A stretch of DNA of 64,000 nt. Source: Roseivivax marinus (GTDB lineage Bacteria > Pseudomonadota > Alphaproteobacteria > Rhodobacterales > Rhodobacteraceae). Both the position numbers and the translations under genes were made by a program. The notes below the pieces were generated by a model. It did not search any database, was not told the DNA's origin, and saw only the letters and a list, made by a program, of their open reading frames with translations. The number at the start of each line of letters is the position of its first letter. The first letter of the stretch is position 1. Below are positions 24,839-51,577 of this stretch, one piece after another. Location: NCBI RefSeq assembly GCF_900109705.1, contig NZ_FOAI01000012.1:1-64000 (forward strand). The letters are read 5' to 3'.

Positions 24839-24870
24839 CGTCGCCTCTTTCTGAGATGGATTTCGGACTA

Positions 24871-26952: not shown

Positions 26953-26954
26953 CC

Positions 26955-31710: not shown

Positions 31711-31778
31711 GGGCGATCTCCTCTTGATTATTTAGCGTTATTGCGAAGATTGGCCGTTTCTGTGCAGCCGATAATGAA

Positions 31779-31815: not shown

Positions 31816-31828
31816 GTCGTTATTCCGG

Positions 31829-32386: not shown

Positions 32387-32522
32387 CTGCATCTCCTTTG
32401 CCAGGAGATGGGTCCGCCCGGTGATCGGGAAAAATGCGCCGAGCCGGCGGCGTGCATCCAGAGCGGTCGCCCCCCAAGGTCGGCCTGCATTCGTTGGACC
32501 GCCCGGGGCTCTACCGAGGATG

Positions 32523-34347: not shown

Positions 34348-37300
34348 CTAATGAACTCTTGGTCGGAGCGACACAAAAGCAACCGATATGCGCCTTGAGA
34401 TCGCATCAGGTGACGGTTCTTCGATCCGGCGCGCCTCGGTGATGGCATCCATCATGATCGCGCGGATGCGGCCGCAATTTTCGGGGTCCAACTGAAGCGC
34501 GTCGGTCATATCGGCGATCGAGATGTAACTCTGCGCGGCCTTCTGCGCGAAGTTCTCACGCACCTGTTGCTTGGCCCTGACCCAATACGGGTCGAGCAGA
34601 CGAGCCCAGGTTTCGCTGAGGTATTCCACGCCGCGCAGAGAGAGCTCGCCGTATAGCTGCTCTTCGAGATCGACGCCTGCTGTAAAAGCGAGTCCGCCAT
34701 CGCCTGAAAGAAAGACAGCCAGAGATTGCAGCAGCGAGTCGGTGCGCTCGGGGGCGAGTTGCCATTCCCGGATCGTGCTCACCCGGGCGCCGAGCTCCTC
34801 GAGCGCCTGGTAAAGCCTTGCCCGGTCCGGTGGCGCGGAGGCGATGCCCCGCGCCTTCATTTCTTCGTAGGCGGCCTTCAGGCGTTGCGCGCAGGTCACC
34901 TGGTTGCGGATGAGGGTTCCGTCTTCCTCGACGAGGAGGAGACGGGGCGGCGCGAATTGTTCGCGGCGCGCGCTCTCGCCCCGCAGGTGCAGGAGCGTGT
35001 AGGCTTGGGAGCCCTCGAGAACGGCGATCTCGGCGCCCCAGAGCCCGTCGATCTCGGTGCGGGCGATGCGGTCGTAACGCTCTGGCGCAAGTAGCGCCCG
35101 CGTGCTGGAAAGAAGGTCATGATAATTCCGCGACCGCAGGGTGCGCGGCTCCCGAAGGTAGGCCGCAACGCTGTCCAGAATGACCTGTGTGTCGCCCCCG
35201 GCGTCTTCGGCGCGCTCGATACGCTCCCGTCCCGAAAGCGCCCGGTAATTCGCGAGGCGCCGGCTCACCTTCTCGTCGGAGGCGATCGCCGCAACAGGCA
35301 CATCGAGGAGGTAGTAATGCGTGCGGGCATGTAGGGAGTCGATCCGGTCGATCCGTCCCATCCCCTGGAGCAGATCCTTGAGGTTCGAGGTCACGCCGAG
35401 CAGCACGAGCGCATCGGCGCTCTGGAGGTTGATGCCCTCGGCCATCTGGTAGGTGAGAAACACTGAGGCGCTGCGTTCATCGTTGCGCTTCCCGCCGGGG
35501 CGGAAGAATTCCTCGATCAGGTGACCCTGCCGGATGGCCGCGAAGCCGGGCGTTTCTCCGCCGACGATATCCTCGCGCGCACGGCGCCGGCTTTCACCAG
35601 CGGGGACCGCGTCGCTCGTCGCGACATACTGGACATGCTCGTCGCCAGGCTCGCGCCGTGCCGCGAGTTCGGCAGCGAAGATCTCAAGCGTGTCGATCCG
35701 TTCCGCGACGAAAACGACGCGCCTGTGGCGCGCCTGGATGCGCAGCGCCTCGGAATAGCGTCGCTCGTCGAAACGCTGGATGTCCGGCCGGGAGAGCAGG
35801 GTGATCAGCTGGTCGCAGCTTGGTGTCTGGGCGTCCGTCCTGGATGTGTCCGGAAGGTCCCCGAAGAGATCGAGCTGTGCCGCATTGGCCGCGGCGCGGG
35901 CGGCGGCCTTCTTGCGCTCGTCGACCTCGAAGCGGCGCAGAGCCTTGCCGATGGCCCCGTGCTCCATTTCCCAGAGAGCCTGCGCGGAGTTCGCGCGCAG
36001 AACGTTGAGAAGATTGCGTGCATAGAGGCTGTTCTGGTTGTGGCGCCGCTCTGCGCGGTTTCCGAAGCGGCTGGTGGTGACGGATGTCAGTCGCCGGCCC
36101 GGCGCGAGATCCGTCGCGAGCCGGGTGATCTCGTCCATGACGCGCCTCTGCCGTTCGGAGAGCGACAGAGAGCTCGGGCGCGGGTGGATTTTGAATGGCG
36201 GGTAACTCGCCGCGCCGGCGCGGCCGCGCAAGGCGCTCTCGCCGATGCAGGCCCGTTGCCGCACCGCCATGAACGGCGCCAGCATGTCCGAAAGGGCGGC
36301 GCGTGCCGTTTCCGAGAGCGCCTCGGCGTCGGTGGCTCCGCTCATCATCTCGTCGATGCTCGCTTCGCGCCTGAACAGGGAATTCATCTCGGCGAGATAG
36401 CCGGGGGACATGAAAATCGAGGCACGCTTCTCGTGGAGATGCGCGAGCCAGTCGACATCGCGATTCCCGAGTAGCGTGGCGGACAGGCAGACATTCCAGG
36501 AGGGAGGTGCGAACTCGATTGCCTCTGCCTTCCGGGATGTCTCGTCGAAGCCCGGGGAGACCGTGTGGCTCTCGTCTATGATCAGCGTGCCATATTGCGT
36601 GAGATCGGCTTCGCCCCGAGTATTTTCAGCGGGGGCACCGTCATATGCGGAGGGTTCCCGTAGCAGGTCATCCTCTGGAGCCGGGATTTCCATATCGCGC
36701 CGCGAGATGAGCCGGCTGTTGCGGACAACGTCCAGAACGCGGGGCTTGCGCGCGGCCCAGCCCGGGTAGACCCGCGGCGGCACGATCGCGAGTGCGCCCC
36801 CTCGGGGAAGGTGGCCCGTGTGATCCTGTCCAAAGATGCGCTCGAAACTCGTTCCGAGGGTATGCCCGAGATGCTTCCCGATATCGGTCTTGCCGGAGCC
36901 CGTGGGGGCCTCGACGAAGGCGAAGCCATGCTCGTAGGTGATCGACGAGGCCTCGTATATGAGCTCTGCCTGGTGGGGCAGCGGCAGCCGCCCGGCGGCG
37001 TCACTCTGCCGGTCAACGCACCAGGGCGCGAAGCTCTTCTGCTCGTGGATGGTGCGCGCCACGGCGTCGGCCGTCGTGACCGGGCGTAGAAGCGCCTCGA
37101 GGATCTCCAGGGCTTCGGTGTTCCAGTCCGTGCTGGCATTCCAGATCTCTTCCGCCGCTGCCTGTCTGTCTTTCGCCACTGCGGCGGTGGTGGGATCGTC
37201 GACATTTGCGCTGGCCATGTCGACGTATTCGATGTTCTGATACAGTCCGGCCCGGGAAAAGTTTGCGCTCCCGGCGAGCGCCCCGAGGGGGCTGGCGACA

Positions 37301-37821
37301 ATCTTGGCGTGAAGGCGCCGGTCGCCGGATATTCCGAGTGCCGCGCCGGCTCTTGCCGGATCAAAAATTCGCAAGTCGATGCGCCCCGTGCGGATCGCTT
37401 CGATGGCCAGCACCGCGCTCAGATCGGCCGCGTCCTCGATCGAGAGGCCGTGGCGACCAAGAAAATGCATCTTGGCTTCCTCGGAGATCGAACGACCGCG
37501 GCCCGGAAGATGAGCCGCGTTGCCGGTGTTCACGCCGAAGGCAATCCTCAAAGCGACTTCGTCGTCGTATGAGATCTCCGGAACCTCGCGCATGACGATC
37601 GCGAGGGATGAAAAGAAGTCTTGGTAGCCGGTCACAATCGTGCATCCGGGCGTTCGCAGGTGCGGGCGGACAAGCTCGATGACCGCGCCACGGATGTTCG
37701 TAGCGGCAAGAAACCCGTGCTTTCCGGTAACACCCGGCTTGCCCGTATCAGTTCGCAAATCCTGGTTGCCCGGCGTCAATTTCCGGGATTTCGGGGAAAG
37801 CCAGTCAGGTAGCTTGATCAT
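34348..37821 (-). CDS. PLD-nuclease domain fused to an SNF2-type helicase
   Basis: An 1157-residue protein. Residues about 40-230 form a phospholipase D-like nuclease with one HKD motif (His171, Lys173, then GSANFS). The helicase follows: Walker A APTGSGKT (305-312), DESH (416-419), SATLLG, a large insert, and motif VI QGMGRIDR. One HKD motif means it must dimerise to cut. PLD-SNF2 fusions are known from defence loci. It lies 246 bp after the AddA-like gene on the same strand. The ATG at 37821 has no strong ribosome site. Confidence 0.82.
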   Translation of the reverse strand: MIKLPDWLSPKSRKLTPGNQDLRTDTGKPGVTGKHGFLAATNIRGAVIELVRPHLRTPGCTIVTGYQDFFSSLAIVMREVPEISYDDEVALRIAFGVNTGNAAHLPGRGRSISEEAKMHFLGRHGLSIEDAADLSAVLAIEAIRTGRIDLRIFDPARAGAALGISGDRRLHAKIVASPLGALAGSANFSRAGLYQNIEYVDMASANVDDPTTAAVAKDRQAAAEEIWNASTDWNTEALEILEALLRPVTTADAVARTIHEQKSFAPWCVDRQSDAAGRLPLPHQAELIYEASSITYEHGFAFVEAPTGSGKTDIGKHLGHTLGTSFERIFGQDHTGHLPRGGALAIVPPRVYPGWAARKPRVLDVVRNSRLISRRDMEIPAPEDDLLREPSAYDGAPAENTRGEADLTQYGTLIIDESHTVSPGFDETSRKAEAIEFAPPSWNVCLSATLLGNRDVDWLAHLHEKRASIFMSPGYLAEMNSLFRREASIDEMMSGATDAEALSETARAALSDMLAPFMAVRQRACIGESALRGRAGAASYPPFKIHPRPSSLSLSERQRRVMDEITRLATDLAPGRRLTSVTTSRFGNRAERRHNQNSLYARNLLNVLRANSAQALWEMEHGAIGKALRRFEVDERKKAAARAAANAAQLDLFGDLPDTSRTDAQTPSCDQLITLLSRPDIQRFDERRYSEALRIQARHRRVVFVAERIDTLEIFAAELAARREPGDEHVQYVATSDAVPAGESRRRAREDIVGGETPGFAAIRQGHLIEEFFRPGGKRNDERSASVFLTYQMAEGINLQSADALVLLGVTSNLKDLLQGMGRIDRIDSLHARTHYYLLDVPVAAIASDEKVSRRLANYRALSGRERIERAEDAGGDTQVILDSVAAYLREPRTLRSRNYHDLLSSTRALLAPERYDRIARTEIDGLWGAEIAVLEGSQAYTLLHLRGESARREQFAPPRLLLVEEDGTLIRNQVTCAQRLKAAYEEMKARGIASAPPDRARLYQALEELGARVSTIREWQLAPERTDSLLQSLAVFLSGDGGLAFTAGVDLEEQLYGELSLRGVEYLSETWARLLDPYWVRAKQQVRENFAQKAAQSYISIADMTDALQLDPENCGRIRAIMMDAITEARRIEEPSPDAISRRISVAFVSLRPRVH

Positions 37822-38067
37822 CGGGCACCGATCTTCGCGAAGCAAAGGGCATGATCCTGAGTAACGGATGCCTTTTCAATCGCTACGGTTTTTCTCAAGA
37901 GAAAGCAGCCGGTTCGTCGTTCTTCGACCGCTCATGTTGCGGAGCCATCAACCTTACTTGATACAACCAGCGTTCCATCTGGAATTCATAATGCTTGTTG
38001 TGCCAGCTGGAGGCCAACCCGAACCTGAAGACTTGCGTCGTCCGCGGATTAGCGGCCGGTTACGACA

Positions 38068-41000
38068 TCAGCCGGGCGTCCCCCAGATAAGCGTGCCTGA
38101 GCCGAGAAAATGGATGCCCGCGCGTTCGATGCGCAGATTCGGCCAGACGACTGTCGCGGCGCGGATGTAAGTGCCGAGCTGGGCGAGGTAGGGGCGCGCG
38201 GCCTCGAGCGGGCTTTTGGGCGCAGGTGACTTGAAGTCGATTATCGCGGCCCGGGTGCCGTCCCTGCTGCACGCCAGAAGGTCCGTTGTGCCCCTGACGC
38301 AGGTGCCGTTCGGGAGCACGGCTTCAAAGGGCAGCTCGGAATACAGGTCTGTAAGGCCACGCTCTGACAAGCGGTCGCCCAGCGCGTTGGCCTGTTCAAG
38401 GAGCGACACCAAGGTATCTTCGCCGAGCCCTGTAGCGGGGCCGAGGTCGAGCGTGCGGTGCGGACGCGTTAGCAGGACACGCATGGCGAGGTGGAGAGCG
38501 GTGCCCCGCTCGCCGGCATCGCCATACGCATCCCCCGATAGAGCGGTGCCGAGGGGGTGGGTCTCAACCGACCAGAGCGCAGCTTCCTCGCCGCCGTCGG
38601 ATGGACGCAGGAAGATCGGCTCGCCGCGGGGGCCCGGAACCTCGCGTCGTCCGGGGCGCCTGAGAGGTTCGGCGGCTGCGGTTTTGGGTGAGGTGGTGAA
38701 ACCCTCGGGGAAGATCTCTCCGTGGGAGGTGATCCGCGCTGGATGCACGGTCTTGCCTATGCTGATAGCGCCCCCGTCGAGGGTCAAATTGCCCTCCTCC
38801 ATCAAGAGGCGTGACACGGTGTCCGCATCTGGCTTGCAAAAGTCAGGCCATTCGAGAACCAGCAGATCGCGGGCGCGGGTGAAGGCAACATATGAAAGAC
38901 AGCGCTCTGTTACTGCGGCGGGCTCGCGGCGGGCCGCGGCAAAGTATGCCGCGACTTCCTTGCTGGCGACAACGGGATGGTAATGGATCGTTGCACGGTC
39001 CAGAAGCATCCCGGGCTCGTCCCAGTCGTCGAATTCGATCCGAAGGGTGTTGGGGCGCTCCTCAATCGTCCAGTCCAGTCCGGTCACGCAGACCACCGGC
39101 CATTCGAGACCCTTTGCTGCATGCCATGTAGAGACCTTCACGCCGCGTGCGGCAGCGGCGCCTGCGTCGGGCCGGGCATTGTCACCCGCTTCGGTGCGGA
39201 TAGCGAGCCAAGCGAGGAAGGACCGAATGTCCCAGCCGAAGACGCCGGAGGCGGCACGGGTGACTGGATCGGCTTCCTCGAAGGATGCAGCCTCCGCGTC
39301 GAGCCGGGCGAGGTCGGCGTGCGCGCGAGAAGGGTCATCCAGTCCTGCTGCCCAGTCGTCCAAACCGCCTTCGGTCCGCAAAACTGCGAGCACTCGACCG
39401 ACCGTCCAGCCTGGGGCTTGCTTGTGGAGGGCCATCAGTGGCTCGAGGTTCGCGTGTTCTGTCAGCTCCTCGTCGAGCACGGCTGTCAGTGCGTTTTCCA
39501 GCGGGAGGGCAGCAGGACCATGGGTGAGATAGAGCAAGGCGGCGAAGCTGTCCGCGGGATCGGCGATTACAGCGAGAGCTGAGCGGGCGACGGTAACGGC
39601 CGCGGAAGAGAACCAGCCATCTTCATCGAGGTCGACGGGGATACCGAGGTGCGCAAGGCAATCGGCGTGCCCCCTCGCCTTGCCATGGGTGCGGCACAGG
39701 ATGGCAACGTCTGAGGGGCGCAGGGGGCGAGCAGCCCCGGTTCGACGATCCGCGATATCGCGTTTCTCCGACAGAAGATTGCGAATCCGCTCCGCGATGT
39801 GATGGCAGCCTTTTGCCAGCGGCTCTCCCTTTTTCGTCGAGGCCTTGTTGGACATTCGCAGCACTTCGATCGGCGTGCCGTTGGCGTTGCCTCGATGCGG
39901 TTTCAAGGGTGCGTAGTCCTTGAAGAGCCCCGCGCCAAGATCGTTCACAAGGTTCATGATGCCGGGCACGGAACGGCGATTGGTGTCCATTGTATAGGCT
40001 GCGTCAGGGTGCTGGCGCGCGAGAGCCGCGGCGAGACGCGCATCGGCGCCCTGAAATCCCATAATCGCCTGTTTTCCGTCTCCGACCAGCACCACGCGCG
40101 GGGCTGCCTCGATGAGATGCGCGAGCAGGGCGAATTGCACAGGGTTCGTGTCCTGGAATTCGTCCACGATCACGCAGTCGATTCCGTCCATCATTGCCGA
40201 GACTGCTTCGGGGCGCTCGCGCAGCAGGGTCTCGGCACGGGCGATCATGTCGCCGAAGTCCACAACGCCAAGTCGGGCTTTTGCCTTTGAATAGAGCCGC
40301 CGCACGTCCTGTGCGCCGGCCAGCATTCTCTCCAGCCGTCCGGAAGCCTCACGTTTCGGACCGGGGTGGCGGGGCAGGGCACGCGCCGCCTCCATCACCA
40401 CCTCGGCGAGTTCATCGTAGCCTTCAGGGGTGGACTGTCGGCGGTTCGTCACGCGTAGGCTCTGAAGCCTTTGCCACCATTCCCAGTCCGTGTAGGCCGA
40501 GTCTGACAGCCCTTTTCGCAGATCGCGGATGTTCGACGTGAAGTCCTTCGTAGCGGCGGCGCTCGTTGACCACTCGACGATCCCATCCGGGAACGTCTCC
40601 AGCATGGCCTCGATCGCGGCGCGCAACGTCATCTCCAACCGTGCACCGTCCTCTTCCGTCTCGGGCCAGTCTGCCTCCAGCGCAGCGGCGGCGCGGCCAG
40701 GGAGGTCAGGGTCGTCGCCTCGCTCGCCCAGTTCGTTCAGGCGCCCGATGGCCGCGCGCAGGTCACGGCGGAATGCATCGGTGGCGCTGCCGCCCGAGAA
40801 GTTCCAGGCGTAGCCGTGCGCTTCGAGATTCTCCGTGAAGCCCTCGAGAGCCTCAGTTTCGGCTATTGCGCGCCGCAGGAGCAGTTCGGCTTCGGCATCC
40901 TCAATCAGACGCAGCGATGGGGAGAGACCGGCGTCGAAGGCGTGCTCCGTCAGGATGCGACGCCCCAGGGCATGGATGGTTGAAATGTAGGCGCGCTCGA

Positions 41001-41205
41001 TAGTCGCGGCGTCCTCAATGCGGCCGACTGAGAGAAGAGCGCCCCTGATGCGCCCCTTGAGCTCCGAAGCCGCGGCCTCTGTGAAGGTCACGGCGAGAAT
41101 CCGTTCGGGACGGATTTCGCCCTTCGTCACCCATGCCCTGAGTGTCTCTTGGATGTGCCAAGTTTTGCCCGAGCCGGCTCCTGCGCCAACAATCTGGAAG
41201 GTCAT
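38068..41205 (-). CDS. AddA-like UvrD/Rep helicase with RecB-type nuclease
   Basis: A 1045-residue SF1A helicase. Walker A GAGSGKT (9-15), motif II VDEFQDTNP, motif III VGDGKQAIMGFQGAD, motif V WHAAKGLEWP and motif VI YVAFTRARDLL are intact. The C-terminal RecB nuclease has a His (GTALHLAM), Asp (GTTDLLA) and DFKS. It overlaps the AddB-like gene by 4 bp, so they form one enzyme, like AddAB or RecBCD. The genome must also hold a housekeeping copy elsewhere for this to be a defence duplicate; that is not testable here. Confidence 0.87.
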   Translation of the reverse strand: MTFQIVGAGAGSGKTWHIQETLRAWVTKGEIRPERILAVTFTEAAASELKGRIRGALLSVGRIEDAATIERAYISTIHALGRRILTEHAFDAGLSPSLRLIEDAEAELLLRRAIAETEALEGFTENLEAHGYAWNFSGGSATDAFRRDLRAAIGRLNELGERGDDPDLPGRAAAALEADWPETEEDGARLEMTLRAAIEAMLETFPDGIVEWSTSAAATKDFTSNIRDLRKGLSDSAYTDWEWWQRLQSLRVTNRRQSTPEGYDELAEVVMEAARALPRHPGPKREASGRLERMLAGAQDVRRLYSKAKARLGVVDFGDMIARAETLLRERPEAVSAMMDGIDCVIVDEFQDTNPVQFALLAHLIEAAPRVVLVGDGKQAIMGFQGADARLAAALARQHPDAAYTMDTNRRSVPGIMNLVNDLGAGLFKDYAPLKPHRGNANGTPIEVLRMSNKASTKKGEPLAKGCHHIAERIRNLLSEKRDIADRRTGAARPLRPSDVAILCRTHGKARGHADCLAHLGIPVDLDEDGWFSSAAVTVARSALAVIADPADSFAALLYLTHGPAALPLENALTAVLDEELTEHANLEPLMALHKQAPGWTVGRVLAVLRTEGGLDDWAAGLDDPSRAHADLARLDAEAASFEEADPVTRAASGVFGWDIRSFLAWLAIRTEAGDNARPDAGAAAARGVKVSTWHAAKGLEWPVVCVTGLDWTIEERPNTLRIEFDDWDEPGMLLDRATIHYHPVVASKEVAAYFAAARREPAAVTERCLSYVAFTRARDLLVLEWPDFCKPDADTVSRLLMEEGNLTLDGGAISIGKTVHPARITSHGEIFPEGFTTSPKTAAAEPLRRPGRREVPGPRGEPIFLRPSDGGEEAALWSVETHPLGTALSGDAYGDAGERGTALHLAMRVLLTRPHRTLDLGPATGLGEDTLVSLLEQANALGDRLSERGLTDLYSELPFEAVLPNGTCVRGTTDLLACSRDGTRAAIIDFKSPAPKSPLEAARPYLAQLGTYIRAATVVWPNLRIERAGIHFLGSGTLIWGTPG

Positions 41206-43625
41206 TCTTCGTCCTCCCACAGAAACGCGGCCACGAGGGGATTGTCGAGCGCGTAGGCGTCAATCCCCAGCTTGTCGAACTCCGCGGCGTCCTTCGTGGT
41301 GTTGAGCACTACCCGTCCCTCGCGCAGCTCCGCGACCGTCGTTGACAGCTTCGCATTTGCTTCGGCATGGGTGTCTGTGTCGACGGGACCGAAGGGCTCT
41401 CCGACAAGGGTGCCGCGGGTGACAGCCACCATGTCCGTGAGGTTGAGGTAGCCGACGGAGATTGCCGTGCCGCCCTCGGCCAGTTCGGTGCCGGCGATCA
41501 TGTCGCCATAGAGTTGGGCCTGCACATCCCAGCCACCCTGCATCCGCTTGACGCGTTTCTTGGATGTCCCGCTCTTGTAGTCGATGACGAGTAGCCTTCC
41601 GTGAGGCAGCTTCAACACCGTGTCGGCCTTGCCGTTCAGGCCCATCCCGAAGGCCTCTCCAGTCAGGTATTCCTCGGTCGTGTGAATTGTTGCGTCCGCC
41701 TCGCGGAGCATCTCGGCCCAGCGGGTCGCGATCCGCGTCAAGTCAGAGGTGAGATGTCGGCGCTCGACCGCCCAGGCGGAGGCCGCAAGGAAACGCAGGT
41801 CGGTCTCCGCTTCGATTGCGGCGTCGATTGCGGCGGGGACAGCAGCCCCAACGGTCGCGGGATCGGGTGGTGGTCCTGGCGGGAAGAGAGCTTCGAGCAC
41901 CTTGTGCATGAGTGATCCACGCACCATGGCACCAAGTTCGTCCGGTCCCCAGCTCCTGTCCTCAATCCCGAGTTCGCTAAGCAGCCACGCGAGCGGAGAT
42001 ACCAAGAGCTTCTCGAGACGGGAGGGCGATTGCGGGCACGGTGCTCCATTCTTCAGACGCAGACCGGTCAGATCGCGACCGAGGTCGAGAATTCGGGTTT
42101 CCGGCGCACTGCGTCCGGGCGAGGGCGCGGCGAGATGGCTGTCGCAGGGCCAGTAGGCGGCATCGTCGGAGAGCGGTTGGATCAATGTCTCCGCCGTCAA
42201 TCCGACGCGGTGCGCCAACATGTCGAGCGCAGCTGCGGGTGCAAGGCGGTCGCCGGCGCGGTCGCGGATCGGCACGGTGATCTCGATGGCGTCGGAGACC
42301 GCCGCCAGCTGCCGGTCCAGCCGAGCGCTGGCAAGTTCGAGTGACGCACGACGACCGGGCAGGGCGATGCCGCAGGTCCGCTCAATAAGGTCGATCTCGT
42401 GTTCCAGCCAAAACGGACCGGAGCCGGTGACGCTGGGATAGTGATCCCCCGCGAAACCGAGGGCAAGGAGACGGCGCACTTCGCACCACGGGTTCCGCCC
42501 TTCAGTGAAGACGGCGATGGCTCCTCGCGAAGCCGTAACCGGCGCTTCAGATGTGGGGGCGGGGCGAGTGATGGCGATCAGTCCGTGCCAGTCGACGGGC
42601 GCAGCTTCGGCGCCGCATGGGAGGCCGCGTAGGGCGGCCGCAATGTCAGCGGGCAAATGGTTTGCGATGGCTCGAAGTGTCTGGCCCAGATCGCCTCCGG
42701 TGATTGGGTGTCTGTTCAACAGGCTCCTAAGCGCGCTGTCCCGTGTGCCGACACCGAGTGCCTCGAGAGCGACTGCCGCCATGCCAGGGGCGGGCTTATT
42801 CAGCACGGCGAGGATCAGGTGGACGGCCTCTGCTGCGCGGTTGCGGGCGGGTGCTCCAGGTAGACCACCGAGACGCAGTCCTACAGCGGCGAAGACGGCT
42901 TCGGCGTCGATGAGCCAGGCCGGATCGTCCGGTAGCAGCAGGCCGATTTCGTCGGCGCTCTCGACTGCCGCCTCGTCGAGAAGCCGCTGCGCGCGTGCGG
43001 CTGCGAAGCGCAGTTCGTCCAGCGGGTCTCGCAGTGAGGTGATCGAGAGCGTAGTGCCCTCGCTGGTATCACCGGCTTGAAAGGCGCGCAGGGTCCCGCT
43101 TCCAGCCGGCCGGAGCCCGGGGAAGGCATCTTCCTGCCAAGTGCCGCCATGATGGCGCTCGAGCATGTCCGCAAGCGCGAGATCGGCTGAGGTGGCCCCT
43201 ATCCGGCTTCCGCTGCGCAAGAGGGGGAGTGGGTCGAGCGCATGGCCGGCCCCGCCTGCCAAGGCATGGGCGAGCGGTGCAAGATCCGCAGGCAAGTTTC
43301 CGAGATCGCGCCAGATGTCACAAAGTGCGGTCAGGTGGAAGCGTGCTCGGCCCTCGGGGAGCCGCCCCACCTCGACGGATGTGGGATCGAGTGCCGGAGC
43401 GGCGTGGATGAGTTCGCGAAGTGCCTTCGAGGCGGCAGCGACGGTGGACTCAGGCGCAACCTCAAGGCTGTTGGCCCAAGGTGCGGTCTTCGCCTCAAGA
43501 ATTGCGGCGGAGTCCTCGAATGGGGCGGGGCGGGGGCAGAGATAAGTTTCGGCCAGGAGCGACGGCGTCACTGGCCGTATTGCACCGGTCACCGGATGAA
43601 CGGTGGAAATCGGGTCGAGTGGCAA
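41202..43625 (-). CDS. AddB-like PD-(D/E)XK nuclease subunit
   Basis: An 807-residue protein. The C-terminal domain is a RecB-type nuclease: RGSLMHKVLE (His), GLNGKADTVLKLP (Asp), LLVIDYKSG (Asp and Lys). The long N-terminal part resembles a degenerate helicase-like scaffold as in AddB. The CxxC-type iron-sulphur cysteines of classical AddB are not obvious. Its stop overlaps the start of the AddA-like gene, indicating a two-subunit complex. Confidence 0.8.
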   Translation of the reverse strand: MPLDPISTVHPVTGAIRPVTPSLLAETYLCPRPAPFEDSAAILEAKTAPWANSLEVAPESTVAAASKALRELIHAAPALDPTSVEVGRLPEGRARFHLTALCDIWRDLGNLPADLAPLAHALAGGAGHALDPLPLLRSGSRIGATSADLALADMLERHHGGTWQEDAFPGLRPAGSGTLRAFQAGDTSEGTTLSITSLRDPLDELRFAAARAQRLLDEAAVESADEIGLLLPDDPAWLIDAEAVFAAVGLRLGGLPGAPARNRAAEAVHLILAVLNKPAPGMAAVALEALGVGTRDSALRSLLNRHPITGGDLGQTLRAIANHLPADIAAALRGLPCGAEAAPVDWHGLIAITRPAPTSEAPVTASRGAIAVFTEGRNPWCEVRRLLALGFAGDHYPSVTGSGPFWLEHEIDLIERTCGIALPGRRASLELASARLDRQLAAVSDAIEITVPIRDRAGDRLAPAAALDMLAHRVGLTAETLIQPLSDDAAYWPCDSHLAAPSPGRSAPETRILDLGRDLTGLRLKNGAPCPQSPSRLEKLLVSPLAWLLSELGIEDRSWGPDELGAMVRGSLMHKVLEALFPPGPPPDPATVGAAVPAAIDAAIEAETDLRFLAASAWAVERRHLTSDLTRIATRWAEMLREADATIHTTEEYLTGEAFGMGLNGKADTVLKLPHGRLLVIDYKSGTSKKRVKRMQGGWDVQAQLYGDMIAGTELAEGGTAISVGYLNLTDMVAVTRGTLVGEPFGPVDTDTHAEANAKLSTTVAELREGRVVLNTTKDAAEFDKLGIDAYALDNPLVAAFLWEDEE

Positions 43626-44033
43626 GAATTGGCTCCAAGGGATTTCGAGATATTTAACTTGGGATATTAGCGAAGCAATACGGGGAATAAAGCGAAAAAA
43701 GCATGTGTGCGATAGATTTGGCGTGTCCGTTCATAAGAATATGTAGCCGTATTGCATTTCGGGAATGGGTGAGAAAGCGTTTCGATTTCAGCTGACAGGA
43801 GAATGCAACGATACTCGCGAAAATCCTGGACAGTAGAAATTTCGCTTCTTCGTTGGTTCGGGAATTAGCGACGTGGCGTAAGAAGACAAAGCGCGGCGGG
43901 CTGCGCCTGCCTCCGTTTAAGGACTCGTTAGCCTGGCTACACAACCGTCGGCGACGCTGATGGTTGCGCTGCTCCGGCAATGAGAGCGACGTCGCGGGCC
44001 GGGTGGCCGGTCGCCGGCTCGGCCCGCTCCGGA
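43626..44033. other. About 400 bp without a supported gene
   Basis: This is the promoter-proximal leader of the AddB-like operon. Positions 43650-43870 are AT-richer than the surroundings and probably contain the promoter. No RNA or repeat is seen. Confidence 0.35.
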
Positions 44034-45392
44034 TCACTCGTCTCCGGGAAGCGCGCCGGTGCTCTCGAGATCTGCTTGTGTCAGTTCGCCGGGATCGGGC
44101 TCACTCCGGGCCTTGACCGGCTTGGGAGGTGGGGCCTGCCAGGCCTTCAGGTTGACACCGACGAGGTCGTAGAAGCTCGGAACGATGCGCTCGATGTCCT
44201 CGATGAAAGTCCGCCGCCCGGAAAATCGCTTGCCGAGGTTCTCGACGAGCAGCACCTCGAAGGAATGCGGGGTGGTCTCCGGGTTGTCGTTCTGGATGGC
44301 GGTCGGATCGTCGCGCAGCGTCTTGAGATCCTTTGTTGTCGGAGCCCCTCGTCCTGGCCAGTGCGCGCGGACGAGGAGCCGGTCGTCGTCATCGGGCAGC
44401 ATCCGCAGCAGCCAGTTGATCCGGGCCTTTGTGGACTTCTTGTCGCCGGGCGCCTTGAGTGCCATCGACACGGCGACCGTCCGCCGGGCGAGGTCGACGC
44501 AGACATCCATCTCGGAGGCACAGTTCGGCACGCGGATCACCGAGGACAGGGTCTGGCGCGACACGAGGGTCTCGATCAGGTTCTTCAGCCGCGCCGCGGG
44601 ATCGTCGGTGAATTTCCGTTCGACCCGGGTCGAGACCGCCTGGCCCACATGGCTCGACATGTGCAGGCAGAGATCGCGCTCTTCCTGGACCCAGCTCGCG
44701 GCCACGGCCTCGACCTCGGGCGCGGTCTTCTTCAGTGCGCCGTCGTTCAGCACCGCTTGCGTGACATCCTTCCAGCTGGGGGTCATCTGTGTGAAGCGCT
44801 CGACGCCGGTGGCCGGATGCGCAAGGAAGTGGTTGAGTTGCCGAAGCAGGTAGACCTGCTCGGTGTCCGTGACGGTCTTCTGATATTCGAGGATCTCGCA
44901 GGCGGTCGCGAGATAGGACCACGACCAGTGGAAGTGGCCGACCTTCCGCAGCAGGGTTTTCGAGATCGACACCGGGGAATGATCGGCGCGCGAAACGAAC
45001 TGGTTCGAGATCGTGATGACCGCATCGATGCCGTTGGCCTTTGCCAGTTCGGCGTATTTGGAGACCTGCTCGGCGGTGAGCTCGTTGCGGCCGATCTTGG
45101 CCTCGATCAGGGCCGACCATTGCGTGCGGCCGGTATCGACGATCAGCAGCCCGTCGGGGCGGCAGCCGTCGACGACTTTTTCCTTTAGCACCACCTCGGT
45201 GAAGGCCCGGACGCGGGTGCGTTTTCCGACCCGCACTCCGACTCTCCCGAGAATTTCCTCGGCCATGGCGGGGATCTGGGTCATCACGGCCAGGAAAATC
45301 GAGGCCACACGCTTTTCCTTGCTGGTTTCTGCAAGGATCGGAAACAATCTCGCCTCGTCTCCGCTGACGATAAAATCCGGAAAATCTGTCAT
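44034..45392 (-). CDS. PD-(D/E)XK nuclease-family protein
   Basis: A 452-residue protein. CRPDGLLIVDTGRTQWSALIEAKIG contains PD...EAK, the PD-(D/E)XK active site, followed by QVSKYAELAK. The rest is helical, with no helicase motif. The ATG at 45392 has GGAGGT upstream, and a 12-bp hairpin at 45476-45509 separates it from the helicase giant. It resembles stand-alone restriction-like nucleases in defence islands; the partner is unknown. Confidence 0.7.
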   Translation of the reverse strand: MTDFPDFIVSGDEARLFPILAETSKEKRVASIFLAVMTQIPAMAEEILGRVGVRVGKRTRVRAFTEVVLKEKVVDGCRPDGLLIVDTGRTQWSALIEAKIGRNELTAEQVSKYAELAKANGIDAVITISNQFVSRADHSPVSISKTLLRKVGHFHWSWSYLATACEILEYQKTVTDTEQVYLLRQLNHFLAHPATGVERFTQMTPSWKDVTQAVLNDGALKKTAPEVEAVAASWVQEERDLCLHMSSHVGQAVSTRVERKFTDDPAARLKNLIETLVSRQTLSSVIRVPNCASEMDVCVDLARRTVAVSMALKAPGDKKSTKARINWLLRMLPDDDDRLLVRAHWPGRGAPTTKDLKTLRDDPTAIQNDNPETTPHSFEVLLVENLGKRFSGRRTFIEDIERIVPSFYDLVGVNLKAWQAPPPKPVKARSEPDPGELTQADLESTGALPGDE

Positions 45393-45475
45393 GTAACCTC
45401 CCACGAAAACTCGAAAATCGTAGTATTGAGAATGTATCGAGACAACAGTCGGCCCGATACGTCAATTCGGTGTGG

Positions 45476-45509
45476 GCGGGAAGCGCGACAAATGTGACGC
45501 GCTTCCCGC
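45476..45509. terminator. 12-bp stem hairpin after the helicase giant
   Basis: GCGGGAAGCGCG and CGCGCTTCCCGC pair perfectly around a 10-base loop, 78 bp downstream of the minus-strand helicase stop. There is no T-tract, so termination is plausible but not proven. Confidence 0.55.
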
Positions 45510-45586
45510 GGGGATTTATTCTGCGGCCGGCGGGAATGGCGGTGATATTATCGCCATGCGTCTTTCAGCCGGCCGGAGAAATCGGA

Positions 45587-48500
45587 TCAGTCGTGGCCCC
45601 GGGAAAGAGCCTGCGCCAGGGCGTGTTCGGCGACGAACCGCATCGGGTGCCCGTCGTCGATCTTCTTGCGGGCGGCCTCGATCTTCGTGCCGTAATGTGT
45701 CGCGGTCCAGTGCAGCGACGCGGTGTTCGAGACCACCACGAAGTCCGTCTTGTCGGTCACGCTGCCCTTGAGCGCCGCGCCGCGGCGGGCAAGCTCCTGC
45801 CCGATGAGGGAGCGCGGCCCCATGCTCATTTTCCCGGTCAGCACGAAGGTCTTGCCCTCGAGGTCGACCTCTGCGGGGTCGGTGATCGGGTCGGTCGGCG
45901 CCACGACGCCGCCGATATTGGCGACCCCGGTATCGGCATGGCCGTCCGTCACCAGCGCGGCGAGCCATTCGCGGATCTCCTCGGCCTCGTCGTCGTCGAG
46001 CACGGCGTCGGCCAGCGCGCCGTCGACCGCCCAGCGCAGCTGCGCGAACATCGGCGCCTCCGCGAGACGGGAATCGGCGTGGAAACGGGCGTGGATTTTT
46101 CGCGCCTCCTCGGAGGTGATCCGGCCGTCACAGACGATGCCGGCGCAGAAACCGAGGAAGGTGTTCACGGCATCCTTGTCCGAGGCGAGGTCCGGATCGT
46201 CGAGATCGTCCCTGACCGCTTCGGCGTGGAATTCGATCGCGGCCATGACATCCCCGCCCGAGAGCTCGAGCGCGTAGCCAAGTCCGTCCGAGATCGAGAC
46301 CTCTGCGTCGGCGCCGAAGAAGGCGTCCATTTCGCGGGCCTCGTTGACGAGTGCCTCGGCCTCTCCGTCCTCGATGGCGTTCGAGGCGGCGACCCCCTCG
46401 AGGAAGCCCAGCCAGTAGAAGCCGCGCTTGCGGGTGGTCGTGGTCCGATTGAAGGCGTCGTAAGCCCGATCCTCGTCCCACTCCTCGATCCGGGCCGATG
46501 CGAGGTCCGACAGCGACGGCTTTTTGCCGCCGATCTCGTGGGAAGACGGTCGTTCCGATGCGTTGCTATCCGCGTCGGTTTCGAACCGGTGCTCCTGGGG
46601 ATCTTCCTCCTCGAAGAGCAGGCCCTGGGTCTCGCCCCGGGCTTCGCCATGGTCGCTGGTTTTGGCCTTGATCATCTGCACGAGCGGGCTGGCCTCGTTG
46701 GTCATTGCCACAGCCTCGGCCTCGGCGGCTGCCGCGCGCTCGATGGCCTCCTCGGTGGCCTGCCGCGCGCGTTCCGCGGCGCGGGCGCGCTCCTCCTGCC
46801 GTCGGGCCTCGTCTTCCTTGGCGCGAACCAGCGCGGCGTCGAGCGCCTGGCGCAGCCTTTCGATCTGACTGCGCGAATTGCGGAACCAGTCGGTCGACCA
46901 GATCCGGTGGAAGCGCCAGCCGAGGCCCTCGAGAACCTGCTGGCGCAGTCGGTCGCGGTCGCGGCTCGAGCGCGACGAGTGGTAGGGCGCGCCGTCGCAT
47001 TCGACTCCGAGAATGAATCCGTAGGGCCAGCTGGGATGCCGGACACCGATGTCGATGCGGTAGCCGGCCTCGCCGACTTGCGGCACAGCCTCGTAGCCCG
47101 CAGCCTCGATCTGGGCGATGACGAAGTCCTCGAACGGACTGTCGGTCTCCGGCCGTTCGGTCTGGATCTCGGTGATCCGGCCCGTGCGGGAAAACTCGAG
47201 CCAGGAGCGGAGCATGGCAACGCCGTAGGCCTTGTTCTCGGCCTGGATGTCAGTGGGCTTCATCGAGCTGTAGGTCACGATCTTCTCCTTGGCGCGGGAG
47301 AAGAGCACGTTGAGGCGGCGATGGCCATGGACGCTGTTCACCGGTCCGAAGCGCTGGTAGACCTTGCCGCTCTCGGCGTCCGGGCCGTAGAGCGTCGAGA
47401 TCATGATCACGTCGCGCTCGTCGCCCTGGATCGTCTCGAGGTTCTTGACGAAGAATTCCTCGAGCCCGTCGTCCTTCTCGGTCCAGCGCTCGATATAAGC
47501 CTCGACATGCGGATGCCGGGCGCGTTCGCGCTCGAACTCGGCCAGGATCAGCTCGGTCTGGTCCTTGTTCATCGTTGCGAGACCCAGCGAGCGCTCGGGA
47601 TGGTCGCGCATGTGCTGGATGGCGCCGGCGACGATGGCGTGCGCCTCGGGGATGTTGCGGCCCTTGCGGTATTCGCCCTCGACCTCGAAGAGCTCGACGC
47701 CGAGATCCGGATCGCCATCGCGCGCGGCCGGGAAGATCGTCAGCTGGTTCTCGTAGACCATCTTGTTGGAGACCGCGATCAGGGCAGGGTGGCGCGAGCG
47801 GTAGTGCCAGCGCAGCTGGCGCACCGGGGTGAAGGTGGTGTTCGCCATGTCGAGGATGGACTCGGCATCGGTGCGGGAGTCCTCATCGTCGTCGTGATCG
47901 TCGAGCACCTTGGAGAAGAAGTTGGTGGGCGGAAGCTGCTTGGTGTCCCCGACAACCACCACCTGCTTGGCGCGCATGATCGCGCCCAGCGCATTTTCGG
48001 GCGTCATCTGCGAGGCCTCGTCGATGACCAGCAGGTCGAAGGCGAACCGACCGTGCAGATACTGCGCCACTGCGAGCGGAGACATCATCCAGCACGGCTT
48101 GAGGTTGATCAGGGCGGACCCCGCACGGCTCGTCAGGTCGCGCACGCCGATGCGGTTGCGCACCTTGTTCGTCTCGTGGTGGATCAGGCTCATGTTGGTG
48201 TAGGTGCCGACCTTGCCGGTGCCGTTGCCTTGCGGGGGATTGCTGTTCTCGATCAGCTCCTCGCGGATGGCCGCCCGGGCGAGATCGGTGAGCTCCAGGT
48301 CGGCCTTGGCGATGTCGCTGCGCAACCGGTCGAGATCGCTGCCGTCATAGGCGTCGAGCGTGCGCCCGAACCGGTCCTGGATGTGGTCGGTGAGAGAGCG
48401 GTCATAGATCGCCGAAACGATGTCCGGAAGCGCCGCGCGGTGCTCCCGGCCGTCCCCGGTCTGGACCCAGGCGGTCAGCTCGCCGAGGCCGCGGGCCTCG

Positions 48501-48793
48501 AGGGCGGCGATGGCGCGCAACAGGCGGGCCCGGTCGACGAGACCGTCGGGCCGGGTGGCGGCGTCCCGCACGTCCTCGATCCGGCCGGCGATGTGATGCA
48601 GGGCGCTTGTCGCATCATCGGGGTCGGTCCCGGCCAGGGCGATCTCGGCAGCAACCTCCGCCGCCTCGACGCCGATCTTTCCAAGCGCACTGAAGATGCG
48701 ATCTGCTTCCTCCACGATCGACTGGGCATGTCCGCGCCGCAGAAGGTCGATGCCAGCCTGCGGATCGGGAAGCTCGGCGATATGGTCCGCCAT
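45587..48793 (-). pseudogene. 3' part of a giant SF1 helicase with Vsr-type nuclease and BRCT domains
   Basis: A 1068-residue frame. Helicase motifs: DEASQM (258-263), VGDTKQLPPTNFF, LRWHYRSRHP, IQGDERDVIMIST, and LNVLFSRAKEKI. Next is a Vsr/DUF559-like nuclease (YRIDIGVRHP, VECDGAPYH, then LGWRFHRIWSTDW). A coiled Ala/Glu region, a TerB-like helical domain (CDGRITSEEARKIH) and a C-terminal BRCT (FVLTGKMSMGPRSLIG) complete it. It continues in frame from 48863-50386 except for one TAG. Walker A belongs to the missing N-terminus, so the motor cannot be active as it stands. Confidence 0.8.
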
Positions 48794-48862
48794 CTGGATC
48801 GCGATCTTGATGTCCCCGGTCGCCGAGGGGGACAGTAGATCGGCAGCGCGCGACTGCTCTTC

Positions 48863-50386
48863 CTACACGATCGCATCGTTGAGATCCGCGTCGGCGGTCG
48901 TTGCACGCTCGATCATGTCCCGGTCGATCTCCTCGCGGTTCCTGAAAGACAGACAGGCGGCGATGGCGGCGTCCCGATCCTGTCGCGCGGCTGTTATGGC
49001 GGTCTCCGCCTCTTCGAGGGCCCGGACAACCCCGGACAGCGTCAGCGGCGGTGTTTCGGTATCCGTCGCGAAGTCGCGGAGCGGCTCGAGTGGCCCGGCT
49101 TCGAGCGCATAGCGAAGGCGCTCGTCGCCCTGCGTGATCCGGTCGGTCGCCTCGTGGAACTCCGCGAGTGCGTCGAGCAGTTGGGGATCGCTTTTCACAC
49201 CCTTGAAGACAGACCCGAGGGGTGTCGAGAAACGTGTATCGTAGGCGAAGACATATCGCTTTTTCGACCAACTGGCGTAGGTGCGCAGTGCGGCGGCCGC
49301 GGCAGGGCGCGTCGCCTTGGCATCGCCACCGAGATCGTCGCGATAGAGGGACCACGCGCTCTTAAAAGCGCCGGAAAGGGCTCGAAAGAGCCCCGCGCTC
49401 TCGATCCTGTCCGCCGCCGCATTCAGAGTTTCGGCGTCGTGCTCACTCGCCCGTGGCAGGGTCTTGCGGATTTCCGTGAGCTCTGTGGCCAGTTGGCGTT
49501 GCGTCGCCGCCGCCTCGCGGGCCAGCCCCGGGATCGCGCGGCTGCTGTCGGGCTGCCGCCTGTCGAGGATCGCATCCGGGGTGCGCAGGAGCATCTCGAT
49601 GTCGAGGCGCAGGTCCGCCAGTGTCGTGCCGTTCTGCTCCGCGGTTTCAGCCCAGCGCGCGGGTAGTGCAATTGCCAGGTCTCGCTGGCGGGCGAGAGCT
49701 GTGCGCCGCGTTTCGAGCGTCTCGATATTCTCGGAGAGAGCCGCCGGGTCGACGACACCGTTGTAAGTCCTGGCGATATCCGCGGCGGCCTCGATGACCT
49801 CGTCGAGATCTGACGCGTCGGGATCGGAAAGGAGCTCCTTCAGGACGTCCCTGGCTGCCTTGGCACGCTCCCGTGCATTACACACCTCGTGGGCGGACTG
49901 GCGCATCTCCGGGTCGAGAAGCGCGGAAGCCAGGTCTGCATCGCAGGCGGGGTTGGCAGCGACGTAGTCCAGGGCGGCCCTGATGGGAGCTGCCTGCGCG
50001 TGCACGGGATCTTCCGGAAGGAAGGGACGAAGCGGGCTGTCCGCAGCCCCGGCGCGGAACGCCTCGATGGCGCGGGCGAGTGCGGACAGATCGTTCGCGA
50101 TGTCCTCGGCCTCGTCGGCGCGCAGCGGCGCCTTGCCGGCGTCGTGCCAGAGCCGCGCGATCTGGTCTGCCGTCGCCAGCCGGTCGAGCACCATGCGCGC
50201 GTCGCCGTCGATTTCCGACCGGGTCTCGGGATCGATCAGTTCGGGTCCGGCGAAGCGCAGCCGGCGGATCTCCCGCGGCAGGCCGTCGAGATCGGCGGCG
50301 GAGGCGATGGCCCGTCCGAAGGCCTCGTGAACGGTCAAGCCGGAGACACCAAGGCGGGTGCCGAGGACATCGAGGTAGGCCCGCAT
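48863..50386 (-). pseudogene. 5' part of the same helicase, ending at an in-frame TAG
   Basis: A 507-residue frame, mostly coiled helix (ETRRTALARQRDLAIALPARWA and similar). It ends at TAG 48863-48865, and the same frame stays open through 23 further codons to the Met at 48793. GVSGLTVHEAFGRAIA near the start corresponds to the segment after the SELHS block in this helicase family, so everything before it, including the Walker A, is absent. Upstream in this frame a stop lies about 20 codons before the Met at 50386. Confidence 0.75.
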
Positions 50387-50616
50387 TTCGTTGCGGTGGC
50401 AGGCGCTTGCGGGAGCCGCTCGTTTCGACGTCCGGGCCAGGCCTGCGCGTCATCTTCGATCACGAGAGCTTCCGGGATTGCAGCCCAATTGGGGGCAGGG
50501 CACTCGGCGAAGAAGGTCCGCCAGCCCGGCATGACCTGTCCGTCGGCGCCCATTTGCTCTTCCGAGAGGTCCGCCTGCCAGTTTGCGTAACGCTCTTGCA
50601 TACGCTCTCGCAGCAT
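50335..50616 (-). CDS. Small protein of unknown family, overlapping the helicase 5' end
   Basis: A 93-residue frame from ATG 50616 (MLRERMQERYANWQADLSEE). The first 60 residues look protein-like (VMPGWRTFFAECPAPNWAAIP). The last 25 overlap the helicase frame and are low complexity. It may be a real small gene cut by the deletion that removed the helicase N-terminus. Confidence 0.4.
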   Translation of the reverse strand: MLRERMQERYANWQADLSEEQMGADGQVMPGWRTFFAECPAPNWAAIPEALVIEDDAQAWPGRRNERLPQAPATATKCGPTSMSSAPALVSPA

Positions 50617-50657
50617 CACCATGATGTCTCTACCCCGCTCTTCTCACGTCCCCAATT

Positions 50658-50687
50658 CGTATCCGATAACCCGTGTTATTCGATACG
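50658..50687. promoter_or_regulatory. Inverted repeat before the helicase block
   Basis: CGTATCCGATAAC and GTTATTCGATACG are arms of 13 bp with two mismatches and a 4-base spacer, 42 bp before ATG 50616 on the minus strand. It could be an operator, judged from symmetry only. Confidence 0.45.
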
Positions 50688-50692
50688 ACAAA

Positions 50693-50717
50693 GGGCCCGG
50701 GGCTCCGCCCCGGGCCC
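50693..50717 (-). terminator. Rho-independent terminator after the 133-aa gene
   Basis: GGGCCCGGGGC and GCCCCGGGCCC form an 11-bp GC stem with a 3-base loop, 10 bp after the stop at 50727. Read on the minus strand it is followed by TTTGT. Confidence 0.75.
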
Positions 50718-50726
50718 CTGACTGCG

Positions 50727-51128
50727 TCAGGCCGCGAGGGCGCGGTTCAGCGTCGCGACAATATCCTCGAGTCGGGCGCCGGACCAGCGCACATGCCGAT
50801 CGAACGTATCCGGCCCAGGCAGACCCCAGGCCGTCTCCAGCCGGCAGCAGGTTGGAATCTCGCGCAGCGTCTCGAGCAGTGCCGCGAGAGTGTCCCTGGC
50901 TTCCTCCAGCACTTCTCTCAGTTCATGGGGCATAGCGTCCCCGTCCAGATGTAGTTGGTCCATCATGTCGAGGATGCGGCAGGCACCTCTCCGCCCGGCC
51001 TGGGTGAGCACGCGACCCAGAGTCTCGCGTTCGGTGTCGAGCCACGCGCCGAGGCGGTGCAGCGCCACGTCGAGCGCGCCCGCGCTGGCGCTCGGCACGG
51101 CGAAATGAGTGAAGACGATCGAGTTCAT
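50727..51128 (-). CDS. Hypothetical helical protein, 133 aa
   Basis: A 133-residue protein of helices with many acidic and Arg residues (LREVLEEARDTLAALLETLREIP). No membrane segment and no recognised family. ATG 51128 is used. It is followed by a strong terminator, so it is transcribed apart from the helicase block. It lies 110 bp after another small gene on the same strand. Confidence 0.6.
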   Translation of the reverse strand: MNSIVFTHFAVPSASAGALDVALHRLGAWLDTERETLGRVLTQAGRRGACRILDMMDQLHLDGDAMPHELREVLEEARDTLAALLETLREIPTCCRLETAWGLPGPDTFDRHVRWSGARLEDIVATLNRALAA

Positions 51129-51238
51129 TGCGAACCTCTATGATGATTGAAGTCCGGGGCGATCCGCCCAAAGGCCGCATCGGTTGGGACGGCGATGTCG
51201 CCGCCGCGGCCGTCAAGGAAGGGGTTCGGCCCTGCCGA

Positions 51239-51577
51239 TCAGCTGCCGGGGTCACAGGCCGCGAGGAGATCCCGGAGCATCCGCAGCCGCTCGTGGGAGG
51301 AGGCGGGTCGGATTGGCACGAGGTCGTAGACATCGCGCCCAGGTTCGATTTCCACCGCGTAGCCGAGACGTCGCAGCAGATCGTTGGCCTCGGTGCGGAG
51401 CTGACGGCGCCGAACTTGATCGCGCGCGACACCGGAAACGACGACGAAGGCGAGGCAGTGGGACGGGCCGTAATGCGCCAGCCCGAAGAGTGCCAAGTTG
51501 GGCAGATCAGGGTTCCCGGCACGTAGCGCCGTTTCTATCCAGCCGAGATGTTCAGACCGTCTGTCTACCTTTTGCAT
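51239..51577 (-). CDS. Hypothetical protein, 112 aa
   Basis: A 112-residue protein starting at ATG 51577 (GGAGGAACT upstream). The sequence (LALFGLAHYGPSHCLAFVVVSG, then RTEANDLLRRLGYAVEIEPGRDVYDLVPI) suggests a small alpha-beta fold. No family is recognised. It is the first gene of the minus-strand island. Confidence 0.6.
   Translation of the reverse strand: MQKVDRRSEHLGWIETALRAGNPDLPNLALFGLAHYGPSHCLAFVVVSGVARDQVRRRQLRTEANDLLRRLGYAVEIEPGRDVYDLVPIRPASSHERLRMLRDLLAACDPGS

Follow-up and report, generated by a model that had tools for sequence, protein, structure and literature searches.

A second AddAB pair and the apparently exchangeable cassettes behind it in Roseivivax marinus and its relatives

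Described systems and the Roseivivax locus

Among the described systems closest to the genes considered here is AddAB/RexAB (family models TIGR02784 and TIGR02786). The window analysed comprises 64,000 nucleotides of Roseivivax marinus (assembly GCF_900109705.1, 4.0 Mb in 39 contigs; contig NZ_FOAI01000012.1, positions 1-64,000, forward strand), and its minus strand carries a gene pair that shares with AddAB/RexAB the B-A order, one superfamily 1 (SF1) motor, two PD-(D/E)XK sites and the AddB fold. The pair differs from AddAB/RexAB in being an extra copy with a shorter AddB, in scoring far below the family cut-offs, and in belonging to a family that is often found in defence operons. In the order of minus-strand transcription, a truncated Hhe-like gene and a gene of 456 amino acids precede the AddB-like and AddA-like genes, which are followed by a fused gene for a PLD nuclease and a superfamily 2 (SF2) helicase, referred to below as PLD-SNF2 (table 1).

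Several other described systems come close to parts of this locus. Azaca is related through the ZacA-ZacB-ZacC cassette carried by 16 of 80 relatives of the pair and through its PLD plus SNF2 logic, but the AddB-like protein matches no PADLOC model, and PLD-SNF2 cannot be aligned as ZacB plus ZacC beyond the motifs. The locus was not assigned to Azaca: DUF6361 was not found in the R. marinus genome at E 1e-10, and no Zac model is among the matches listed for the window proteins (for AddA, the best 25 of 49). Gabija was considered and rejected, as the GajB models match only the UvrD part of AddA, which is generic, and no GajA is among the matches listed for nine proteins. SauUSI is a Type IV restriction enzyme consisting of PLD, SF2 ATPase and target-recognition domain (PMC7913695); compared by description only, PLD-SNF2 has the same domain order, but no target-recognition domain was identified in it, and Pfam gave none for its C-terminal region. 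A proposal of 2017 (PMC5704561) sees UvrD-Cas4-like fusions, which occur near Type III restriction-modification genes and sometimes with WYL genes, as accessories of several defence systems. They resemble the AddA-like protein as an SF1 helicase-nuclease proposed to be a defence helper, but they are, again compared by description, single fused genes that have no AddB partner and have other neighbours. The auxiliary nucleases of BREX (PMC12839542) are comparable in that nuclease modules adjoin the BREX core genes, but AddA, AddB, RecB and UvrD are absent from the main text of that paper, and no such block occurs in the consulted part of its section 35.

RecBCD degrades phage DNA after restriction and is itself blocked by phages (PMC12707154). 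Host RecBCD has been proposed as a hub common to Druantia III and Zorya II (PMC13192584), and Gabija senses the absence of RecBCD (PMC12407980). In the open-licence literature no description was found of AddAB with Azaca, of an anti-phage AddAB-like pair, or of DUF6361, and the passages matching AddAB and BREX describe no such pair within the extracts consulted. The idea of a helper engine is already in print for UvrD-Cas4 (PMC5704561); a defence AddAB pair with exchangeable cassettes was not found in the consulted portions of that literature.

The AddB-AddA pair and its conservation

Pfam assigned PDDEXK_1 (E 2e-22) to the AddB-like protein, and UvrD-helicase (E 1.4e-45) together with PDDEXK_1 to the AddA-like protein. 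Neither reached the equivalog cut-off of its model: the AddB-like protein scored 24.9 bits with the alphaproteobacterial AddB model TIGR02786 (cut-off 486.5) and the AddA-like protein 150.7 bits with TIGR02784 (cut-off 860.75). The host has its canonical addB and addA side by side on a different contig (C11:19701-25966; 891.7 and 1142.6 bits), and it was therefore rejected that the window pair could be the housekeeping AddAB of R. marinus, a possibility that would have refuted the reading of the first-pass annotation. Since the canonical pair is located elsewhere and the window pair scores far lower on the same models, the latter is, judged by sequence, a second and strongly diverged AddAB. 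The canonical AddB of the host comprises 972 amino acids as translated, compared with 807 in the AddB-like protein. Loss of the iron-sulphur cluster was tried as a mark of the family and dropped, as the host's canonical AddB likewise has no such cysteine motif.

The AlphaFold2 model of the AddB-like protein (58-sequence alignment; pLDDT 86, pTM 0.58) has as its best listed PDB match the AddB of AddAB (4cej_B, Z 21.3, rmsd 13.2, 727 residues aligned). The AddB chains of five PDB entries reach Z 20.8-21.3 with 727-756 of 807 residues aligned, and the next listed row has Z 16.0; Foldseek gave E 6.7e-18 and a query TM of 0.43 (range 0.40-0.45). An rmsd of about 13 together with query TM values of 0.40-0.45 means that the placement of the domains differs or is uncertain. 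With its helicase-like domains, C-terminal PD-(D/E)XK nuclease and predicted AddB fold, the protein qualifies as a B subunit of AddAB type. Its profile matched no sequence of a solved structure at E 0.1. For the AddA-like protein RecB chains rank best among the structure matches, AddA being also present among the PDB matches; its SF1 motor, its PD-(D/E)XK domain and its position beside the B gene identify it, at the sequence level, as the A subunit. The catalytic residues of the AddB nuclease are identical in all 58 aligned rows. In AddA the nuclease residues, the Walker A, the EFQD and the arginines of motif VI are likewise identical, in 27/27 rows.

Relatives were collected in two samples, which are not independent because several genomes are common to both. 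The order sample of 292 genomes, the host included, contains AddB-like genes in 12 and PLD-SNF2 in 10, both being present only in R. marinus and in one genome with an AddB fragment on another contig. Among the 11 other AddB matches of this sample AddA adjoins in nine. A scan of named species with two peptide patterns yielded 119 AddB relatives, the best 80 of which were kept as loci; 79 are alphaproteobacterial and one (L090) is a metagenome bin labelled gammaproteobacterial (Oceanospirillaceae) and possibly misbinned. The nearest named relative of the pair is from Oceanicella (Rhodobacterales). Across 299 genomes of the phylum only the host's own matched the AddB-like protein, so the family is rare there or was missed, and phage records gave no AddA-like match at E 1e-40.

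The coupling of the two genes is conserved. AddA sequence follows AddB in 79 of the 80 loci, a few of them broken, and the remaining one (L155) stops at its contig end. As called ORFs (open reading frames), AddA stands behind AddB in 74 loci, and in 47 of these the two genes, as called, overlap by 4 bp; the window has the same overlap (ATGA) between the AddB stop and the AddA ATG at 41205, as had been noticed from the letters before. In five more loci (L126, L131, L095, L113 and L151) the AddA sequence was recovered by tblastn. ORFs were called greedily by length, with starts set to the longest possible, so that an antisense ORF can hide a gene, as happened to AddA in L095, L126 and L131: in L126 and L131 AddA lies beneath such an ORF, and in L095 it is in pieces. 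In L113 (10837-15528) the AddB and AddA parts share one frame and the AddB start lies in another, and in L151 (10001-14194) one ORF holds both parts and the missing middle is the N-terminal third of AddA; both loci may thus represent genes in decay and not functional fusions. Split or rearranged genes also occur in L090, L117 and L133, which are counted among the 74.

Cassettes behind addA and a possible defence role

Behind AddA, 46 of the 80 loci carry a named cassette, the classes being defined by genes on the + strand of the locus. ZacA-ZacB-ZacC is found in 16 loci (PADLOC, representative: ZacA 4.8e-121, ZacB 8e-161; ZacC was labelled by position and cluster, the protein itself being unscanned), and an Azaca-like trio of an X protein, a PLD protein and an SNF2 helicase in 18, or 19 when one without a called X is included. 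In the representative X cassette the PLD protein matches ZacB at 1.3e-8, and the SNF2 protein, which reaches 3.5e-15 with ZacC, scores better with the models PDC-M27C, DrmD and BrxH. Separate genes for a PLD protein and an SNF2 helicase follow AddB-AddA in 35/80 loci altogether (16 ZacABC and 19 X-PLD-SNF2). The other cassettes are McrBC (4/80; representative McrC 2.5e-73), a PD-(D/E)XK nuclease of PDDEXK_4 type (3/80), an HNH-like gene of 521 amino acids (2/80; recognised by motif and eye, no Pfam match), a PvuRts1I-SRA enzyme (1/80; 7e-23) and a HATPase-NOV_C protein (1/80), and two order-sample loci have McrBC (L062) and GmrSD (L059) behind AddA. The labels of ZacC, of three of the four McrBC, of one PDDEXK_4 and of seven of the eight BREX loci derive from a BLAST cluster with scanned representatives.

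In 17 loci an X gene was called immediately after addA, and in 16 of these it runs into the addA stop with an overlap of 1-14 bp. ZacA overlaps addA in 10 of 16 (six by 1 bp and four by 94 bp as called), the other six starting 6-96 bp behind. In profile comparisons the SNF2 proteins of the ZacC and X cassettes are related in their N-terminal helicase part (96.6% probability), the PLD proteins (ZacB and X cassette) are marginal (57%), and no relation was detectable between X and ZacA. WYL and AAA genes occur in 46/80 and 25/80 loci, respectively, and the BREX genes PglX-PglZ-BrxL are located in front of AddB in 8/80. An ADP-ribosylglycohydrolase gene was also observed near AddAB in 24/80 loci (for example L106, L138 and L144); in both L058 and L064, where it was scanned, the protein also has a DSP-PTPase phosphatase domain.

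The pair is also found in ten plasmid records, seven of which are called conjugative. In all of the seven plasmids examined it is annotated as a PD-(D/E)XK nuclease and a UvrD-helicase protein; three have the order AddB, AddA, two unnamed proteins and a helicase, in one case behind BREX-1 genes, and one has a DUF262 gene further behind the pair. This mobility bears on the reading that the pair protects the host, clearing or repairing chromosome breaks made by neighbouring restriction systems as an accessory repair enzyme, and so making these systems tolerable to the cell. AddAB is indeed a repair enzyme, and for a UvrD-Cas4 fusion a helper role in several pathways has been proposed, with partial redundancy to RecB (PMC5704561), but repair is covered, as canonical AddB was kept in 18 of 18 further genomes (the 19 other order-sample genomes with an AddB-like or PLD-SNF2 gene, less G071), and defence cassettes accompany the pair when it moves, including on plasmids that are called conjugative. 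Host protection is considered improbable.

That what follows the pair can change is seen in closely related loci. Sinisalibacter L156 and Palleronia L160 have in common a stretch of 8,335 bp with 97.8% DNA identity, which breaks off 142 bp short of the AddA stop; beyond this core one of the two continues with X-PLD-SNF2 and the other with ZacABC, and homology resumes behind the cassette (137 bp at 75%). The same swap pattern is seen in L149/L153 at 83.6% identity, and in L098/L105 the similarity (94% identity) is limited to the pair, with McrBC behind one of them. In L119/L122 the cores are 97% identical over 5.8 kb, with X-PLD-SNF2 behind one and an Na/H exchanger behind the other, a difference suggesting that a cassette was gained or lost. 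On the AddB tree, a quick tree with long-branch warnings, the ZacABC and X-PLD-SNF2 labels each require 6 changes for 12 rows. In the window, DNA homology to the nearest relative L089 (71% protein identity) covers 38071-43626 and does not extend beyond the pair. In L089, HmaB and HmaC lie in front of the pair and an HNH-like gene behind it; a remnant of the latter gene was looked for in the window, with no significant match. Because swaps lie near the addA end and homology between the window and L089 is confined to the pair, the pair seems to be inherited and moved as a module, and the genes that follow it are, on comparison of these sequences, exchangeable.

In the window the position of the cassette is occupied by PLD-SNF2, which consists of an N-terminal HKD nuclease, an SF2 helicase and a C-terminal region. 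Pfam gave weak Helicase_C, DEAD and ResIII matches below the cut-offs, and the motifs HKD, Walker A, DESH, SAT and QxxGRxxR are identical in 12/12 aligned rows, the window included; the domains claimed by the first-pass annotation are confirmed for AddA and AddB, and for PLD-SNF2 as intact motifs in a weakly matched protein. Its profile matched no sequence of a solved structure at E 0.1, and a structure model made without alignment (pLDDT 34) was unusable. That PLD-SNF2 arose by joining ZacB to ZacC, or the PLD protein of the X cassette to its SNF2 protein, was considered and rejected, as profile comparison gave only 0.2-11% probability, so PLD-SNF2 and the cassettes share domain types only. 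In four other places (L031, L033, L035 and L037; L033 scanned, the others by similarity) relatives of PLD-SNF2 stand directly behind a PLD-ResIII-Helicase_C-DUF3427 protein, which is a second recurrent arrangement, with two PLD helicases. McrBC, PvuRts1I and GmrSD are modification-dependent enzymes. By analogy, the SauUSI-like domain order of PLD-SNF2 is suggestive of modification-dependent restriction as a theme that it may have in common with other cassettes. Since the exact trio was found nowhere else, the case for PLD-SNF2 as third member draws on its position and its domain logic.

It could also be asked whether the pair, PLD-SNF2, the 456-amino-acid gene and the Hhe relic are independent genes stacked by chance in a defence island. 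That the exact trio occurs only in the window, that the 456-amino-acid gene is stand-alone and the Hhe gene a relic (see below), and that PLD-SNF2 relatives occur without AddAB, including the four places just described, all speak for such stacking. As far as the pair is concerned, it is contradicted by short overlaps that recur between addA and cassette genes, and by swaps located close to where addA ends. For the window's PLD-SNF2 this reading may hold; taken as a whole, we regard chance stacking as rather unlikely.

We propose, with confidence that we would put at an even balance, that AddB-AddA is a diverged AddAB dedicated to defence, degrading DNA from ends that are made by an exchangeable restriction partner. 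The partner encoded in the slot behind addA (putatively the PLD-SF2 helicase in the window; in other loci Azaca, McrBC or nucleases that are PvuRts1I-like, HNH-like or PD-(D/E)XK) would recognise and cut invader DNA; the AddAB-like complex would then load onto the new double-strand ends, the AddA motor would unwind, and the two nuclease domains would cut both strands, leaving the invader beyond rejoining or repair. Such a second AddAB would still function while a phage inhibits the housekeeping copy. The sequences show the pair with its invariant catalytic residues and predicted fold, its coupling and the cassette exchange; that cutting precedes degradation, that degradation from ends is the outcome, that phage inhibitors leave the second AddAB working and that PLD-SNF2 is its partner are inferred. 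More tentatively, and short of an even chance, the loci may together represent an unnamed defence architecture, in which a fixed AddB-AddA engine, often accompanied by WYL, AAA and ADP-ribosylglycohydrolase genes, serves restriction front-ends (Azaca, Azaca-like, McrBC, PvuRts1I-like, HNH-like, PD-(D/E)XK, BREX, Hma and here the PLD-SF2 fusion) that are swapped by recombination near the addA end.

A fixed core with exchanged partners is also the pattern of a sensor with its effectors, and the second AddAB could instead be a decoy that baits phage inhibitors of RecBCD/AddAB, inhibitor binding releasing the cassette nucleases to attack; systems that react when RecBCD is inhibited include Gabija, OLD and retron Ec48 (PMC12407980, PMC12904381). 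The invariance of both nuclease sites and of the motor in the aligned rows is, however, beyond what a bait needs, the sequence is very distant from canonical AddB (see the TIGR02786 score above), and cassettes such as McrBC and PvuRts1I bring their own target recognition. We consider a decoy function improbable.

A number of observations weigh against the proposed end-degrading defence engine. The trio of AddB, AddA and PLD-SNF2, which had been expected to recur if it worked together, did not: PLD-SNF2 was found among the ORFs of 0/80 AddAB loci (E 1e-8), and AddA or AddB at 0/14 PLD-SNF2 places (tblastn, E 1e-8; two contigs under 8 kb), and PLD-SNF2 starts 246 bp behind AddA without overlap. 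Named cassettes are missing from 34/80 loci, several of which stop at contig ends, and some cassette-free loci continue with an Na/H exchanger, a transposase, HipA or an aminotransferase; in three of the seven plasmids AddA is not followed by a nuclease cassette on the same strand. DUF6361 (ZacA) is present in 6/292 genomes, in three of them without an AddAB-like pair in the stretches read. All cassette labels taken together require 21 changes on the AddB tree, compared with 32.3 when shuffled, so that labels cluster and cassettes mostly stay and are exchanged now and then. The pair can be broken, as one order-sample genome (G100) has AddB without AddA and another match is a fragment, and it is split, rearranged or partial in L090, L095, L117, L133 and L151. 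Finally, defence islands collect nucleases anyway.

Neighbouring genes and implications

The long minus-strand ORFs of the first-pass annotation are present at the positions it gave (table 1), but its view of eight consecutive genes as a single unit, or as one operon, was rejected, because the 456-amino-acid gene is stand-alone and the Hhe-like gene a relic. Its suggestion of defence or DNA end-processing is supported for the AddB-AddA pair, which is a second AddAB, coupled in nearly all relatives and often accompanied by Azaca, McrBC, PvuRts1I, BREX or Hma genes, and is not supported for the eight-gene unit.

Table 1. Minus-strand genes of the window discussed in the text
Feature	Coordinates	Strand	Remarks
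AddB-like nuclease/scaffold subunit, 807 aa	41202-43625	minus	C-terminal PD-(D/E)XK: H574, E578, D668, D682, K684
AddA-like SF1 helicase-nuclease, 1045 aa	38068-41205	minus	Walker A, DEFQD, C-terminal PD-(D/E)XK (H905, D975, D990, K992)
Fused HKD/PLD nuclease and SF2 (SNF2-like) helicase, 1157 aa	34348-37821	minus	ATG at 37821; putative cassette, 246 bp behind AddA
Stand-alone gene, 456 aa	44034-45404	minus	PD-(D/E)XK-like by eye; judged outside the system
Truncated Hhe-like relic	45587-50449	minus	Walker A N-terminus missing, in-frame TAG 48863-48865; judged outside the system

The 456-amino-acid gene is present in 30/292 order genomes, its own included, and a comparison of 8 of the 29 other neighbourhoods, viewed over a wider stretch, revealed no further gene within about 5 kb that any of them have in common. 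The PD-(D/E)XK claimed for it is visible by eye as PD...E-A-K and found no Pfam match at E 0.1.

The supposed helicase giant matches the PDC-S37 and Hhe models and consists of two ORFs that share a reading frame and are separated by a TAG codon in it; its C-terminal ORF is present in 27/292 order genomes, partly in partial form. In tblastn, residues 502-1711 of an 1849-amino-acid Hhe-like relative (L189) match window positions 50449-46814. Because the match starts at 502 and the Walker A of the relative lies near 422, the window gene lacks the ATP-binding N-terminus (about the first 500 residues) and is a truncated relic. It resembles Hhe, a single-protein anti-phage system, but is truncated and stopped, and the parts of the complete protein (DUF4011 part, Walker A helicase, MTES_1575) are not all found in it. 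The part at 45587-46500 (minus) is a C-terminal extension with a BRCT match, and shorter frames elsewhere match only there.

Beyond the island, minus-strand ORFs at 28300-33917 are probably the mobile-element module that had been noted beside it, in agreement with a weak tyrosine-recombinase match (E 7e-4) in the 638-amino-acid one. Repeats with 21-nt spacing lie at 33813-33914, at the N-terminal end of a 464-amino-acid ORF, and at 24625-26958 a perfect 22-nt inverted repeat with arms 2,290 nt apart surrounds an MqsA-like gene and an Xre-MbcA/RES toxin-antitoxin pair. A 127-amino-acid ORF gave no family match in Pfam and other profile searches, and promoter and terminator signals in 37300-46000 are no more frequent than in shuffled sequence.

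If the proposed role is true, a second AddAB inside a defence cluster, staying in position as its restriction partner changes, would make the idea of RecBCD as a hub testable within one operon. It would bear on the fate of invader DNA after the first cut, and on defences that carry their own engine because phages disable that of the host, and it would enlarge some of the Azaca and BREX loci by two genes.

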